From: Myxococcales bacterium
Lineage (GTDB): Bacteria; Myxococcota_A; Bradymonadia; Bradymonadales; Bradymonadaceae
DNA length: 64,000 bases
Direction: 5' to 3'
Assembly (NCBI GenBank): GCA_007120035.1
Contig: SKON01000222.1
Coordinates: forward strand, 1-64,000
The first letter of the stretch is position 1. Every line of letters starts with the position of its first letter. Both the position numbers and the translations under genes were made by a program. Below, in pieces: positions 13,104 through 60,534 of this stretch. Below the pieces are notes generated by a model, which was given only the letters and a program-made list of their open reading frames with translations, was not told the DNA's origin and ran no database searches.

Positions 13104-13566
13104 TCACCGCGCTCCACCATCGGTCATACCCCGTTCTACTCCCATCTGCCCCCGTCTGAAAAGCGGGCATCGCCGCCCCTTCGGCGTCATCGATCGAGAC
13201 GCACGGGTTGGCGGCGGCATCGTCCCAGACCGAGTACAGGGCCCAAACGATCTACCCCCGGACAAGCCCGGGGGCTATAGATAGTGGGGCTTCACAGGGG
13301 CCAAGGCCCCGTTCCGCCGGGGGCACCCCAACGACTCGACAGTCCGTTTACGGGTCGCCGATTCGATGGATAACCCCGTGACTTTGAGCCCGCCACGAAT
13401 GGCCTGTCGCGACTCGCCAAGGATCTTCGAAACATCGCGGCGAAGCGGCCCCTTGGGGGCCAGTCGGGGGGGGACCGTGGGGGTCCTGAACTCGGTGAGG
13501 AATGGAGTCGTCCGCGCCGCCCCTTCCGTTGGAACACGCCTCCGACATTGACGCCGCACAGAACCT
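13104..13566. other. Intergenic gap holding a degenerate inverted-repeat element
   Basis: There is no convincing gene here. Small open frames exist on both strands but have no ribosome-binding site and overlap repeat sequence. The gap contains a diverged copy of the inverted-repeat family described at 15515-16140, followed by about 65 bases that must hold the signals for the transporter gene at 13567. Confidence 0.6.
13231..13500. repeat. Degenerate member (A) of a large inverted-repeat family
   Basis: Left-arm sequence at 13231-13320 (GAGTACAGGGCCC, CTACCCCCGGACAAGC, GGGGGCTATAG, CAAGGCCCCG) matches the left arm of the element at 15515-16140. An opposite-facing right-arm remnant (GGACCGTGGGGGTCCTGAAC) lies at about 13471-13490. 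The central part does not align clearly with the core of the other two copies, so this may be an older or rearranged copy. Confidence 0.65.
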
Positions 13567-15514: not shown

Positions 15515-16140
15515 TTCCGACACTCGAACCGGATCGTGGGGGTCCGTGGGTAGACCGCGGTTCCGAAACGTCGGGGTTGGCGGCGAAGGAGGTCGGGACG
15601 TCGGGGTTGGCGGCGGCTCGTTTCCGAGCATAGTTCAGGGCTCCCACGGTCCACCCCGGGACAAGCCCCCGGGGCTATAAATAGCGGGGTTCCGCAGGGA
15701 CCAAGGCCCCGCTCCACCTTCGATGTTTCGGAGAACGGAGTCGTTCCGAACCAGGCCCCGATTCATCCCGGCACCGTCGAACTCCGCACCGGGTTGGTTC
15801 TCAATTGGCCCAAACGCGGAGATCATCTAAGGCGGAGCGGGGCCTTGGCCCCTGCGAAGCCCCGCTAACTATAGCCCCGGGGCTTGTCCCGGGGTGGACC
15901 GTGGGGGCCCTGAACTATGCTCGGAAAATACCCGCCGCAAACCTCGACGGTCCGGTTTCCTTCGCCGCAAACCTCGACGGTCCGGTTTCCTTCGCCGCAA
16001 ACCTCGACGGTCCGGTTTCCTTCGCCGCAAACCCCGGGTCCGGTTTCTTCGCCGCAAACCTCGACGTTCCAGTGTCCTTCGCCCTGCACCCCGACGTTTC
16101 AGAACCGCGCCCGGTAGACCCTGAGAGCCCTGTACTATGC
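15515..16140. repeat. Large inverted-repeat element (B) between two divergent genes
   Basis: Arms at 15624-15718 and 15831-15924 are near-perfect inverted copies over about 95 bases and share CATAGTTCAGGGC, CCCACGGTCCACCCCGGG and CCAAGGCCCCGCTCC. Outside these arms, tandem units of about 30 bases continue on both sides (15540-15620 left, 15931-16080 right), also in inverted relation, and GGTAGACC-type ends lie further out. The central segment (15719-15830) includes a 31-base stretch at 15728-15758 identical to the complement of 60291-60321. The whole could fold into a very long hairpin. No transposase is encoded. Confidence 0.85.
15931..16080 (+). repeat. Tandem 30-bp repeats in the right arm of element B
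   Basis: Two perfect 30-base copies at 15961-15990 and 15991-16020 follow a copy at 15931-15960 that differs only at its first bases. Two degenerate copies run to about 16080. Each unit has the form CGCCGCAAACCTCGACGG followed by TCCGGTTTCC. The unit length is a multiple of three, so the array is open in one frame and would encode Phe-Ala-Ala-Asn-Leu-Asp-Gly-Pro-Val-Ser repeats. There are no spacers, so it is not a CRISPR array. Confidence 0.9.
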
Positions 16141-16146
16141 TCGGAA

Positions 16147-19100
16147 ATGAGCTACCCTCATCTTATGACCTCCCTGGGCCCCTTCGAAATCCAAGGCCTC
16201 CTCGGTCACGGCGCCATGGGCGTCGTCGCCAGGGGCACCGACCGGCGAAGCGACACCCCGGTGGCCATCAAGATGGTCATCGCCTCCACGAAGATGACCG
16301 CCGAGCTCGTGGAGACCCTCCATCGAGAAGCCCGGGCCATCGCCACCGTGGCCCACCCCAACATCGTGCAGATCGTCGACTACGGGGTGGTCTCCGCCGC
16401 CGAGGCCCGAACGCTGAAGCGTTCCCTCAAGACTCTGATCCCCGCCGGCAGTCCCTACATCGCGATGGAGCTGGCCAACCGCACCTTCGACGCAGATCTC
16501 GACACACCGGATTGGCGGTCCCTGCGAAACCTCCTCCACCAGATCCTCGACGGCCTCGCCCACGCCCACGCCCGAGGGTTGATCCATCGCGATCTCAAGC
16601 CCGACAACCTCCTGATGGCGGCCACGCCGGCGGGCCTCACTCCCCGGCTGACGGACTTCGGAATCGCCGTGCTCTCCGAGGAGTTCGAGACCGGCCTGCG
16701 AGCCTCCATAGCGTTCGCCGGCACCATGGCCTACATGGCTCCCGAGCAAGTCTCCAACTGGCGCCATCTAGGCCCCTGGACGGACCTCTACGCCCTGGGC
16801 TCCATGACCTACAAGATCCTCGCCGGTCGCCCCCCGTTTCTCGGGGCCACCATGCAGGTCCTGATGGCCAAGATGCGAGAAAATCCCGACCCCATCACGG
16901 CCTTCCGTTTCCCCGTCCCCGACGGCATCCGGGGGTGGCTCGACCGGCTGCTCGATCGAAACCCGGAGGCCCGGTTCGCCTCCGCCGTGGCCGCTCGCAC
17001 CGCCCTCGACGGTCTCGGCCCCCCCGCTCCCGACACCCCCTTGTTGGAGGCGATCCCCCCCAAGGCGACCGCCGGTGACACCACCATCTCCCTCCCGGAG
17101 CTCCGAGAGACCCTGATCCTGGCTCGCCAGGAAGCGCCGCCCCATACCACCGCCGCCGTTCGGGACGACGTGACCATGCCTGCCACGTGGCGACGCCCCG
17201 CCGGGGTCCCTCGCGCCACGAGCCCCGCCCTCTTCGACCTGCGACCGCCACCGTTCGTGGGCCGCGTCGACGAACGGAACCACCTCTGGACGTCCCTCCA
17301 GGACGTCGTCACCTCCTCCTCGCCACGAGCCATCGTGATCACCGGCGCCTCCGGCCACGGCAAGACTCGCCTCTGCGACTGGCTAGCCACCTCCGCCCAC
17401 GAGCTCGCCGGCCTCCCGACCTTCCGTGCGGCCTGGTCGACACTCCCCTCTCGCAGCACAGGCCTCACCGGCCTGGGCCGCTCCCTCATCGGCGCCCGGG
17501 GCCTGACCTTCGATGAACTCACCGCCGAGCTCGAAGCCGCCGCCGAGCCCCTGACCATCGACGCCCCGGCGTTAGCCGTAGACCTCGCTGACCCCGATCA
17601 ACCCACCGATGACTCTCTGGGGTTCGCCGATCCAAACCAGCGGCTTCGCTCCTACCTCGCCCTCCTCCAGGCCGTCTCCCGAGGGCTCCCATTCATCCTT
17701 CACTGTGACGACGTCCATCGTAACTTTGAAGCCCGAGCGCTCATCGACGCCCTCCTCTCCGCCGAGCTCCCGGCCCTGATCCTCGCCACCGTCCGAGACG
17801 ACGAAGCCGATCCCGACGAGCTCCGTTCGTGGATCGACGCGCACCGCGACCGCCTCGAGGGGCTCCCGTTGCCGATCCTCGACCCGCCTTCCCACCGCGA
17901 ACTGGTCGCGAGCCTCCTGCCCATGACGGAGCCGACCCGAGATCGCCTCTGGGAGGCCACCCGCGGGAACCCCTTCTTCGCCGTGAACGTCGTCGGTGAC
18001 TGGCTCCACCGCGGCCTCCTCTACTACGAGGGAGACCGGTGGGGCATGACCTCCGCCGCCGAGGCCAGCCTCCACCGATCCGTCTCCGACCTCGTTCTGT
18101 CCCGGATCGACGGCCTCCTTCAGCGCCATGAGGGGGCGTCCGAGGCCCACGTCGAGCTCCTCGCGACCCTGGGCGACACCGCCGATCTCGACGAGTGGTC
18201 CCAGACCTGTGAGGCATTCGGACTGCCCCCCCGTCCGGACCTCATCGACGGCCTCGTCCGATGCGGCACGGGGCGCGCCGAACCAGGGCTCTTCGCCTTC
18301 TCCCACGCCATGGCTCGCGACGCCATCCTTCGCCGCGCCGACAACGCCGGCCGCCTCCCGGCCCTCCACCGCGCCTGCGCCGACGTCCTCCGCGACGCCT
18401 ATCAGACCCAACCCCGAGGCATCGCCCGCCGGTTCGCCGCCCACCTCGAGGGCGCCGGTGAGCCCGACGAAGCCGCCCAGGTCTGCCTGGAAGCCATGGC
18501 CGCCTCGAGTCATCACTGCGACACCCACGCGACGATCGCCTTCGCAGACCTGCGACGGCCCCTCCGCCAGGACAGCCCCTTTGACCCCTCCGACGTTCAA
18601 GCCGCCCTCTCAGAGGCCGGCGCCCTCGGCGCCCTGGGACGCGCCGATGAGGCACAAGCCCTCTTGGAAGCGACGGAGACCCTGATTCGACGAGAAGACC
18701 TCGACTCGTTTCTCCCCGAAGTGCTGCGCTACCGAGCCATGTTTGCCCGCAACGCCGGCAAACACGCCCTGGCCTGCTCTCTCTTCGACGCCGTCGCCGA
18801 CGAATTCGTACGCCGCGGCGACCTCCACGGCGCCGGCGTCGCCTCCCTCGGAACCGTCACATCCTATCGGTTTCTCGGGCGCAACGACCTCGCACAGGCA
18901 CGCTGCGAAGCGGCCATCGATCACTTCGAAGCGATCCATGATCCCTTCTGGATCGTCACGGCCCGACGGGAGCGAGCCCGCCTCTTCCTCGCGATCGGGC
19001 ACCTCGACGACGTCGAGGATCTGGAGGCCCTCGAACGCTATGCTGACGAGGCCGGCGCCCTTCAGGTTCGCTCCCTCCTGGTCAACGACCAGGCCCGGCT

Positions 19101-36727: not shown

Positions 36728-38263
36728 TCACTTCAGGACTTTCGCCAACGCGTTCAGCATGAGCTGGCGCCCTTCGCTCACCTCAAAGGTGTCCGACAGG
36801 AACCCAAACATCAGAGTCCGACCGGCGTTGCCATGTACGGCGCACGATGAATCATCCTCGTAGGTACAGACCGAGACACCACCATCCAGAGGGACAAGAT
36901 ACGGGGCGAACGAACCCCACTGGGGAGAAGTCAGTTGCAACGGAGAAGCCACCCCGAAGGACATCAGGGGCGTCGTAAACGTCGCCTCGCTCCTGTTCTC
37001 CTGCACCACCTCTACACCCATGGTTGCAGCCAGCGGTGAGTTAAACCACGTCCCCCCTAACGCCCTACCGCCATTCTCGACCCACTCATCGAGGGCGTTG
37101 TACAACGCCCCGGAGGCACCCCCACTGTGGATGAAGACCACCACCACGTCATAGTCACCGGACGCCAACTCCGTCTCGGCATCGCTCAACGAACCCGTCA
37201 CATCGGTCAATTCGATGAGGCCCTCTGAGTCCAACGCCGTCAGGCCCGCTCGCACACCGCTCGCATTTGAGGTGTCGAGATAGAGCAACACTCTCTTCCC
37301 TTGCACCACAGACTCTCGAGTGGACCCACAGAGGTTGTACTCCGAGACGACCTGATCGATCGCTCCATCTCCAGTGGTATCATAACCGAACACGAAGCTT
37401 ACTCCCGGGCTGACACAGGTCTCTGAGTAGCTGCTAGATTCCACCAGCAGCTCCGGCCCCGGCTCTCCATCCACGCCGTTGCACACCGTCTCATCACCGG
37501 TCACGTCGTCGATCTCGCCGTCGCCCGTGGTGTCGTATCCGAACCGGAACCGGGTCCCACCGTTTTCGCAGTCTGCGGCATCTTCGGTCTCCAGGAGGAC
37601 CGTCAGTCCGTCGTCTCCATCGACACCGTTGCAGATCACATCCGTCGAGAAGACAACGTCGATCTCTCCGTCGTCAGTAGTATCGTGCCCAAATGTGAAG
37701 TGCGTGCCTCCCGCCGGACATGCCTCAGAATCCGCCGGCTCGGTCTCCATCAACATGGGCACTCCGTCGGCCCCATTGACGCCATCGCAGACCGTCTCTT
37801 CGACCACGACGTCGTCGATCTCTCCATCGTCAGTGGTGTCGTACCCGATCCACAATGTGAATCCGCCTTCGGGACAGGCATCGCCCGCCGGGGCCGTCTC
37901 GACGAGCAGGTCTCGGCCCGGCTCTCCTTGCTCTCCTTGCTCTCCTTGCTCGCCTTGCTCTCCTTGCTCTCCTTGCTCTCCTTGCTCTCCTTGCTCGCCT
38001 TGCTCTCCTTGCTCGCCATCACAAATCGTATGGGTCGAGACCTCATCGTCGATCTCTCCATTCTCGGTGGTATCGTACCCGAAGCTGAACGTCGTACCCC
38101 CGGCGGGGCAATCCTCTCCCGCTGGAGAACTCGAGACCATCAGGGGAGGAGCATCCGCGCCATCCGCACCATCAGTTCCGTGGAGGCCGTCCTCCCCGGA
38201 GCAAGCGGTCAGACCCAACGCCAACATCCCTGCCCACAACCACTTCGCGTAATTCATCTTCAT
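36728..38263 (-). CDS. Repeat-rich lipoprotein with collagen-like Gly-Glu-Gln tract (copy 2)
   Basis: 511 residues from ATG 38263 (GAGGT upstream; a second ATG at 38257 is possible), lipobox LTAC. It has five Cys/Gly/Asp repeats of the kind in copy 1, but between the first and second is a tract of about ten Gly-Glu-Gln triplets ending in Gly-Glu-Pro-Gly, a collagen-like pattern. The C-terminal domain ([36 protein letters not shown]) matches copy 1. The Gly-X-Y run could trimerise and form a stalk that projects the domain from the cell. The frame upstream to 38335 is not preceded by translation signals. Confidence 0.82.
37919..38020 (-). repeat. 9-bp tandem repeat coding the Gly-Glu-Gln collagen-like tract
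   Basis: The plus strand reads as repeated CTCTCCTTG or CTCGCCTTG units, about eleven copies. Each unit is nine bases, so length change by slippage would keep the frame. The paralogous gene has only one or two such units at the same position. Confidence 0.9.
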
Positions 38264-40083: not shown

Positions 40084-40440
40084 TACAGAGGTCATCGGAC
40101 GGAGGTCAGAGGACGGAGGCCAGAGGACGGAGGTCAGAGGACGGAAAGCAGCGTTCGCGCCACCCACGGGGGTCGGCCCATCGCGAACCCTATGAGAGAC
40201 AACGAAGCCCCGAGCCTTCTCCCCACCCTGTGGGGAGGTGCCCGAAGGGCGGAGGGGTCGTCCCGCGCCGCCCGAACGTCCGCCCCACCGCGAAGCCCGA
40301 CCCGCACCCACCGGGCGGCCATGACGACGTCCCTACCGACGGAAACCGATCGCACCCGAGAGTCCTCCCGCCGTTGCAAGGACAGGTCCTTTGTAATAGT
40401 CTCACCAATTCTTTCCCTCCCCCCACTTGGACGATCTGAG
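40084..40440. other. Intergenic gap with a 14-bp tandem repeat and no convincing gene
   Basis: A 56-base repeat array opens the gap (40089-40144). The rest is GC-rich with small open frames on both strands but no ribosome-binding site. A dyad AGGAC-AG-GTCCT at 40379-40390 and an AT-richer stretch near 40390-40410 (TTGCAA, then TAGTCT 17 bases on) may be the promoter region of the lipoprotein gene at 40441. Confidence 0.55.
40089..40144 (+). repeat. Four copies of a 14-bp tandem repeat
   Basis: Units AGGTCATCGGACGG, AGGTCAGAGGACGG, AGGCCAGAGGACGG and AGGTCAGAGGACGG stand head to tail, starting six bases after the stop of the SDR gene. The unit length is not a multiple of three and the array is non-coding. 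Confidence 0.9.
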
Positions 40441-41103
40441 ATGTTTCGACTGTTCCCCCTGCCCTATCTGTTCACCTCCGGACTACTGGCCCTCGCTGCC
40501 TGCGCCGCGCCTCAGTCCGCGCCCGAAGAGTCCGCAGAGGACGCTGCCGCGGAGTCCGCGCCGGATGAAACTGTGGTAGCTGAAGAGTCTTTGGAGATCC
40601 CTGCGGATACCCAGCTGGACGCGCTGACCTTCGAGCAGGCTAACGCCTACTGTGAATACCTACAGCAAGAGATGAAGGCGAAGTTGGGCGACGACACCAT
40701 GAAGAAGGCGGGGTGTCTCTTCAGTGGTGCGATGGCTTTCTTCTTCTCCGAAGACGAGAGTGCCTGTCACGCCGCCCAAGAGGAGTGCCTGGCCAGCGAT
40801 CTGGAAGAAGAGAGCTTCGACGACCTCTGCTTCTCTCAGGAAGATCTCTCGGCCTGCTCGGCCACCCTGGCGGAGCTCACCGACTGTCTGAATGCCGCGG
40901 CAGATTACACCTTTGGCGGTTTTCGTGCGTTCGCTGAACTAACCTGCAATGACGTCACCAGTGATGAAGGCATGGGCAAGATGGAAGAGGCCATGGAAGG
41001 CATATCTTGGACGTCTAGGGCGAGGAGGCAGGACACGGACGAAGCCTTTCCCGACATCGACGCCTGCGCTGCCCTACGTGAGGAGTGCCCCGACCTGCGC
41101 TGA
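40441..41103 (+). CDS. Cys-rich lipoprotein, first of a pair with a duplicated 5-prime end
   Basis: 220 residues, signal MFRLFPLPYLFTSGLLALAAC (lipobox LAAC, Cys 21). An Ala/Glu-rich linker is followed by a domain with eight or so cysteines (YCEYLQQE, GCLFSG, CHAAQEEC, DLCFSQED, ACSATLAELTDC, TCNDV, ACAALREEC). No named family; the even cysteine count suggests disulfide-bonded secretion. ATG at 40441 is supported by the signal and by the matching start of the next gene. The first 43 codons and the leader are nearly the same as in the next gene, while the mature domains differ. Confidence 0.78.
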   Translation: MFRLFPLPYLFTSGLLALAACAAPQSAPEESAEDAAAESAPDETVVAEESLEIPADTQLDALTFEQANAYCEYLQQEMKAKLGDDTMKKAGCLFSGAMAFFFSEDESACHAAQEECLASDLEEESFDDLCFSQEDLSACSATLAELTDCLNAAADYTFGGFRAFAELTCNDVTSDEGMGKMEEAMEGISWTSRARRQDTDEAFPDIDACAALREECPDLR

Positions 41104-41147
41104 CAACCCCCGACTCTTTCCCGTCTTCCCCACTTGGACGAGCTGAC

Positions 41148-41621
41148 ATGTTTCGACTGTTCTCCCTGCCCTATCTGTTCACCTCCGGACTACTGGCCCT
41201 CGCTGCCTGCTCCGCGCCTCAGTCCGCGCCCGATGGAGTGTCCGCAGAGCACGCTGCCGCGGAGCCCGCGCCGGATGAGGAACCCGCAGAGTACGCTTCC
41301 GCGGAGACGACCGACGCCGTCGAGGCCACCGATGGGCTGCCGGACGACCTGTGCGAGAGGATCTGTCGCCAGCAGACCGTCTGTGTCCCCGATCATCCCG
41401 AGGAGTTCGACGACTGCCTGCGAGGGTGCGCCGAGGAGCATGCGCTCCTCGTCCAGCTCTCTCCACCGTGTCTCGCGCTCGCCGAGGACGCCGCTCAGTG
41501 TATCTTGGAGCTCGACTGCGACGGTTTCGCTGCGTATTCCTCTGGGATTGGAGATCCATGTCACGAGAGGCTGCGCACGATGGTGGTGGAATGCCAGGCG
41601 GAGTTCGAGCAGCTCCAGTGA
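41148..41621 (+). CDS. Cys-rich lipoprotein, second of a pair with a duplicated 5-prime end
   Basis: 157 residues, signal MFRLFSLPYLFTSGLLALAAC (Cys 21), an Ala/Glu/Pro linker, and a different Cys-rich domain (LCERICRQQTVC, FDDCLRGCAEEH, PPCLALAEDAAQC, LDCDGF, DPCHERL, VVEC) with the spacing often seen in small lipoproteins of Myxococcota-type genomes. The role is unknown. It starts 44 bases after the preceding gene and is probably in the same transcript. Confidence 0.78.
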   Translation: MFRLFSLPYLFTSGLLALAACSAPQSAPDGVSAEHAAAEPAPDEEPAEYASAETTDAVEATDGLPDDLCERICRQQTVCVPDHPEEFDDCLRGCAEEHALLVQLSPPCLALAEDAAQCILELDCDGFAAYSSGIGDPCHERLRTMVVECQAEFEQLQ

Positions 41622-59950: not shown

Positions 59951-60534
59951 GCGAACCCCGGGGTTCGCTCGCACCGGTTCGTGGGGGTACGCAGTGATGG
60001 CGTCGAGCTTCGGCGCTGCGGCCAAGGACATCGGAACGTCGGGGGTTCGCGGCCAAGGACATCGGAACGTCGGGGGTTCGCGGCCAAGGACATCGGAGCG
60101 TCGGGGTTCGCGGCGGATCATTTCCAGCCATAGTTCAGGGCTCCCACGGTCTACCCCCGGTTAAAACCGGGGGCTGCGGCGGGCAGGGCTCCGCTGGGGT
60201 CATGACCCCGCTCCGCCTGAGATATTCTCCACATAGTCGCCCACTTGAGCACCAACCCGGTGCGGAATTCGACGGAGCGGGAGAGAGATCGGGCCTGGTT
60301 CGGAACGACTCCGTTCTCCGAGACATCTCAGGCGGAGCGGGGTCATGACCCCAGCGGAGCCCTGCCCACTCCAGCCCCTGGCTTCAGCCGGGGGTGGACC
60401 GTGGGAATCCTGAACTATGGCTGGAAATGACCCGCCGCAAACCCCGACGACACCATCCATTCCGCCGCGAACCCCCACGATCCGGTTCGTGGTTTTAACG
60501 GCGCTGGCGCGAACCCCGGGGGTCGCTCGCACCG
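59951..60534. repeat. Large inverted-repeat element (C), flanked by 26-bp direct repeats
   Basis: The two inner arms (60124-60222 and 60327-60426) are inverted copies; the inner 43 bases, including GGGGTCATGACCCCGCTCCG, are identical. Left of the arms are three tandem 30-31-base units (60018-60109), homologous to the units in element B. The core (60223-60326) holds the 31-base block 60291-60321, identical to the complement of 15728-15758, so C is inverted relative to B. At both outer ends stands GCGAACCCCGGGGTTCGC (or with one change) followed by TCGCACCG, in the same direction (59951-59976 and 60509-60534), which may mark insertion or element ends. Confidence 0.85.
60018..60109 (+). repeat. 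Three tandem 30-31-bp units in the left arm of element C
   Basis: Units at 60018-60048, 60049-60079 and 60080-60109, each GCGGCCAAGGACATCGG then AACGTCGGGGGTTC (the third has one G fewer and one base change). They align with the complement of the repeats at 15931-16020, so the tandem arrays are an inherited part of the element family. Confidence 0.9.

Follow-up and report, generated by a model that had tools for sequence, protein, structure and literature searches.

The question raised by this locus is what kind of element a long, noncoding inverted repeat with tandem flanks represents and, if it is mobile, what moves it. The window, meaning the whole 64,000-nucleotide stretch that was analyzed, belongs to the 5.52-Mb draft genome (353 contigs) of an uncultured bacterium. 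The evidence below favors, with a probability of roughly 80%, a large REPIN-like nonautonomous mobile element that is mobilized in trans by a TnpA transposase of subclass 1.2.

Anatomy of the element

The initial annotation described inverted arms around a core, with 30-bp tandem units on both sides, and this outline is real. The symmetric unit, consisting of two inverted arms, the core, and outward tandem units, extends from about 15553 to 16112 and contains an inverted repeat (15563-15673 and 15875-15985) of 111 nt that is 86% complementary. The arms had been put at about 95 nt and the central block at 110 bases; the arm model gives arms of about 106 nt with 98 nt between them. Of the outer bounds first proposed (15515-16140), the start lies in an outer remnant rather than in the element. 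The features of this first copy are as follows.

15553-15572, minus strand: left outer terminus, type I (complement of GACGTTTCGGAACCGCGGTC), from a scan for recurrent termini
15569-15615, minus strand: two tandem units of about 30 bp outside the left arm, facing outward
15619-15725, minus strand: left arm, arm type A, two hairpins, from the arm model
15726-15823, no strand assigned: core, 98 nt, noncoding, not a tnpA remnant
15824-15929, plus strand: right arm, arm type A, two hairpins, from the arm model
15933-16083, plus strand: tandem array outside the right arm, period 30, 5.1 copies, with related sequence carrying on to 16096
16093-16112, plus strand: right outer terminus, type I (GACGTTTCAGAACCGCGCCC), from the same scan
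16113-16152, plus strand: remnant, the distal part of another arm, directly outside the first copy

The 31-base identity that had been noticed between the core (15728-15758) and the complement of 60291-60321 was confirmed by reading both stretches. The second copy to which it belongs aligns with the first over 472 nt at 77% identity (E value of 2e-94) and is built from type B arms.

60018-60114, minus strand: tandem units outside the left arm, period 31, 3.2 copies
60119-60224, minus strand: left arm, arm type B, from the arm model
60225-60323, no strand assigned: core
60324-60429, plus strand: right arm, arm type B, from the arm model

The initial annotation overlooked a third copy, at about 13194-13510. 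This copy represents a separate subfamily (subfamily C), in which the same arms surround an unrelated core, and it resembles three other loci (L217, L218, and L219) at 82% over arm plus core.

13220-13325, minus strand: left arm
13326-13437, no strand assigned: core, unlike that of the first copy
13438-13509, plus strand: right arm, truncated, without the outer hairpin

All three copies are intergenic. Their neighbors encode a Ser/Thr kinase with an AAA domain, a sensor histidine kinase, a protein with a glucodextranase B domain, and a NifU-like protein (nfu).

Copy number and arrangement in the genome

When the host genome was searched with a covariance model of the arm, and 150 of 7463 candidates were scored so that all counts are lower bounds, at least 146 arms were found, most of them at E values below 1e-20, which is much more than chance would produce. 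Such dispersal throughout a 5.5-Mb draft excludes a single recent duplication confined to the copies first noticed. Neighboring arms were arranged head-to-head in 46 of 48 pairs, with a gap of 99 to 100 nt in most. Some unpaired arms sit at contig ends, and some doublets were therefore probably cut by the assembly. An exact 20-base stretch of the core was not found in other genomes.

The 25 complete copies include 14 with two type B arms and 6 scored as having two type A arms, and arm-type hybrids occur among the copies. Within copies that have two type B arms, the left arm resembled its own right partner no more closely than arms of different copies resembled one another (P = 0.14). In one copy (L049) the inner arm ends have traded places with respect to the core, the arrangement that recombination of one arm with the other would leave if it inverted the core.

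Hairpins in the arms and the nature of the core

Each arm contains two hairpins (columns 16-29 and 52-71 of arm alignment A2). The covariation score of the arm hairpins was 0.229 versus 0.120 for shuffled alignments, a value that none of 500 shuffles reached; the score also took in columns 42-50 paired with 72-83, an outward continuation of hairpin 2 whose pairing is poor in type A arms and which is not claimed as structure. Sliding the hairpin partners largely removed the covariation. Both sides change with pairing retained at pairs 20-25, 56-67, 59-64, and 60-63, and pair 59-64 shows four pair types, although part of the covariation reflects the division into arm types A and B, possibly a single event. 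Covariation of this kind fits hairpins formed in single-stranded DNA and read by a transposase.

The core behaves differently. It had been suggested that the element might belong to a structured-RNA family with a conserved core, and the core is indeed 86 to 92% identical between copies sharing an arm type. However, the core showed no support from covariation or from known families: the covariation term of RNAalifold was unfavorable, a compensatory change was seen in one pair only and in a single sequence, an Rfam scan of the window gave no family matches, and subfamily C has unrelated cores of varying length. A structured-RNA core was therefore rejected, and an RNA family as the explanation of the element is highly improbable. 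The MITE-like alternative offered alongside it, with mobility in trans, is the part of that suggestion that is well supported. The core is not required, given that subfamily C combines the same arms with unrelated sequence between them.

A transposase gene between the same arms

The initial annotation noted that no transposase is present, and this is correct for the window but not for the genome, which has four genes for Y1 transposases. One of them (L075, on contig C280) is located between arms of this family, where the core would be, and the arm pair that encloses it has a gap of 508 nt rather than the usual 99 to 100 nt. The arms of this tnpA copy are 86 to 89% identical to those of the second copy in the window, and 5.6 tandem 31-bp units lie outside its left arm. 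It is the sole tnpA copy with these arms in the draft assembly. Dispersed copies together with a full-length HUH transposase gene inside the same arms elsewhere support mobility in trans well. Since cores are unrelated between subfamilies, only the arms are common to these elements and the tnpA copy. The right arm also provides the last 20 or so codons of the tnpA reading frame (L075:1913-1983).

TnpA-Y1 subclass 1.2 is characterized by the motifs DH[IV]H, WQ, and Y---Q--HH in a protein of about 148 aa (Quentin et al. 2018, PMC6006769). The L075 protein has the motifs DHVH, WQ, and YIFDQKRRH, one terminal H short of the signature, in a 142-aa core. It passes the NCBIfam model NF033573 for IS200/IS605 transposases (66.1 bits; cutoff, 55) and scores 18.7 bits, below the cutoff of 80, with the REP transposase model NF047646. 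Its predicted fold (mean pLDDT, 89.9) matches the TnpA proteins of IS608 and ISDra2, with the REP transposase 4er8 ranking lower. These features fit an IS200-like HUH (Y1) transposase with the subclass 1.2 signature, an assignment based on motifs rather than on a tree.

A second subclass 1.2 tnpA in the same genome (L076/L094, contig C317) carries arms of its own with a different sequence, for which the host genome holds 49 matches. Its motifs are DHLH, WQ, and YVFNQKLHH, with L in place of V or I in the HuH motif. The motifs of L080 (DHVH, WQ, and YVDKQKEHH) fit subclass 1.2. One noncoding inverted doublet of the L076/L094 arm family was seen on contig C263. L077 and L078 are longer Y1 transposases, with open frames of 322 and 307 aa, and are without the arms described here.

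Spread driven by TnpA is the best explanation because it accounts for the arms in common with the tnpA copy, the constant head-to-head arrangement, and the covariation of the hairpins. In the mechanism that we propose, two inverted arms, each with two DNA hairpins, would surround a passive core, with tandem units and terminal motifs outside. The TnpA encoded on contig C280 would recognize the hairpins of the arms in single-stranded DNA, for example on the lagging strand, and would nick and rejoin the arm DNA via its tyrosine, spreading the arm-core-arm unit. Hairpin recognition, nicking, transposition, and the passive role of the core are inferred.

An alternative is that the elements are structural or regulatory DNA maintained by the host, such as transcription terminators or sites for gyrase or a nucleoid protein, that spread by recombination only. 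The intergenic position of the three copies in the window, beside two kinase genes and nfu, would suit such a role, and the hairpins could end transcription. However, the unrelated cores, the hybrids between arm types, and the tnpA gene enclosed by these arms are what a mobile family would show, and the region upstream of nfu is without the element in 15 of 15 relatives, which indicates absence rather than an empty site because the gene upstream is not conserved. We regard host maintenance as very unlikely.

Relatives of the transposase and their flanking repeats

Among 58 genomes, arm matches beyond the host genome occurred in three (G002, G006, and G011). In two of these, which are from the same family (G006 and G011), they coincide with tnpA homologues that are among the closest found, at 52 and 50% identity. 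Long arms flank the gene in G011 and give 79 matches in that genome. G002 had one weak arm match and no tnpA match. Long inverted repeats flank the tnpA homologues in G011, G014, and G019, and the close homologues L096, L097, and L105 have no or short flanking inverted repeats.

The closest matches to the L075 tnpA in public genomes were in Myxococcales metagenome-assembled genomes and in Lujinxingiaceae, some of them evidently identical to genomes in the set of 58, and they point to a host in Myxococcota, probably in Bradymonadia. Nearly all of the relatives in public genomes, from several phyla, have the subclass 1.2 signature. Relatives with flanking inverted arms occur in Myxococcota, Abditibacteriota, Acidobacteriota, and Bacteroidota. 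Inverted repeats span tnpA at 22 of the 51 loci that had complete flanks, compared with none of 100 control windows. Hairpins with a CTTYAG apex were found within 450 bp of tnpA upstream at 18 and downstream at 25 of the 51 loci, versus a control mean of 0.75 from controls that were not matched for intergenic sequence. The apex alone is not diagnostic, as the GTAG REPs of Haemophilus influenzae have it too. The GT[AG]G foot occurred in 1 of 81 CTTYAG-apex hairpins beside subclass 1.2 genes, and the arm from the host genome studied here carries GT[AG]G on its 3' side. In an Abditibacteriaceae genome the tnpA arms are dispersed, with 69 matches that include inverted doublets. The tnpA arms of Salinimicrobium (L154) were mostly local with few dispersed, so that Bacteroidota offer no demonstrated case of dispersal.

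When subclass 1.2 was introduced in 2018, it was presented as a new group near the IS200/IS605 transposases, scored "no" for REP and without IS properties (PMC6006769). The inverted repeats at 22 of 51 loci depart from that description, which is a reported property rather than the sequence definition of the subclass. It seems probable, with less confidence than for the element itself, that subclass 1.2 is a further lineage that forms REPs or REPINs in Myxococcota, Abditibacteriota, Bacteroidota, and others, that its hairpins are a class of their own in which a CTTYAG-type apex is common and the GTAG foot is lacking, and that it built unusually large elements here. A link between subclass 1.2 and such repeats is unreported in the open-access literature that we found, in a search outside of which most subscription journals lay.

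Outer tandem units and termini

The pattern of the approximately 30-bp unit had 344 matches in the genome, versus 3 for a control pattern. Among 100 listed matches, 90 were near an arm, and every one of these 90 faced outward. The arrays may have grown by slippage or unequal exchange, and they belong to no REPIN described in the literature found.

Among the 101 ends scanned, two types of outer terminus were recurrent, one (type I) at 19 ends and the other (type II) at 11. This raises the possibility of a TIRtron or MITE family in which these motifs are the true ends, used by a different transposase, with the arms being internal. The inverted orientation of the termini at 30 of 101 ends speaks for such a family. 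Yet at about 70% of ends the termini have decayed or are missing, whereas the arms and their head-to-head order persist, and several separate tnpA homologues possess inverted arms of their own. We consider outer ends of this kind unlikely, though the strongest of the alternatives to mobilization through the arms. No target duplication or exact ends were resolved at the scanned ends.

Comparison with known systems

The elements and their putative transposase share several characteristics with REPIN/RAYT (TnpA-REP) systems of Pseudomonas and Escherichia coli (PMC3116915, PMC6006769): inverted doublets of palindromic repeats are dispersed in the genome, a low-copy HUH/Y1 transposase gene is flanked by the same repeats, and separate transposases accompany separate repeat families in one genome. 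However, class 2 TnpA proteins have a Y---NP motif, in contrast to the Y---Q--HH of subclass 1.2 (YIFDQKRRH in L075), and REP hairpins have a 5' GT[AG]G foot that is absent here. Instead of one REP of 20 to 40 nt, there are arms of about 106 nt with two hairpins each, together with a core of about 100 nt and outer arrays of 30-bp units.

TIRYT/TIRtron elements (PMC3733652) likewise place a Y1 transposase gene inside long inverted repeats, and some of these repeats form dispersed families, but the described TIRYTs are in subclasses 2.1, 2.2, and 2.5 (PMC6006769), whereas the gene here is of subclass 1.2 and has hairpin arms. The L075 protein passes the same model as IS200/IS605 (subclass 1.1) transposases and has the fold of IS608 TnpA. 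However, gene-carrying copies of IS200/IS605 are without inverted-repeat ends, and the family here has long inverted arms, which enclose tnpA in a single copy, and many arm-core-arm copies with no gene. A MITE is a deletion derivative of an autonomous element and has a target duplication. These elements have their arms in common with the tnpA copy, their cores were rejected as tnpA remnants because they show no match to tnpA, and no target duplication was resolved.

The host genome thus pairs two subclass 1.2 genes with two dispersed repeat families, which provide candidate substrates defined in sequence. Such a pairing would show that REPIN-like systems exist beyond class 2 RAYTs.

Other repeats in the window include a 164-bp direct repeat (40410-40568 and 41115-41278; 91% identical) that is unrelated to the element and a 9-bp tandem repeat at 37921-38014 with 10.4 copies.
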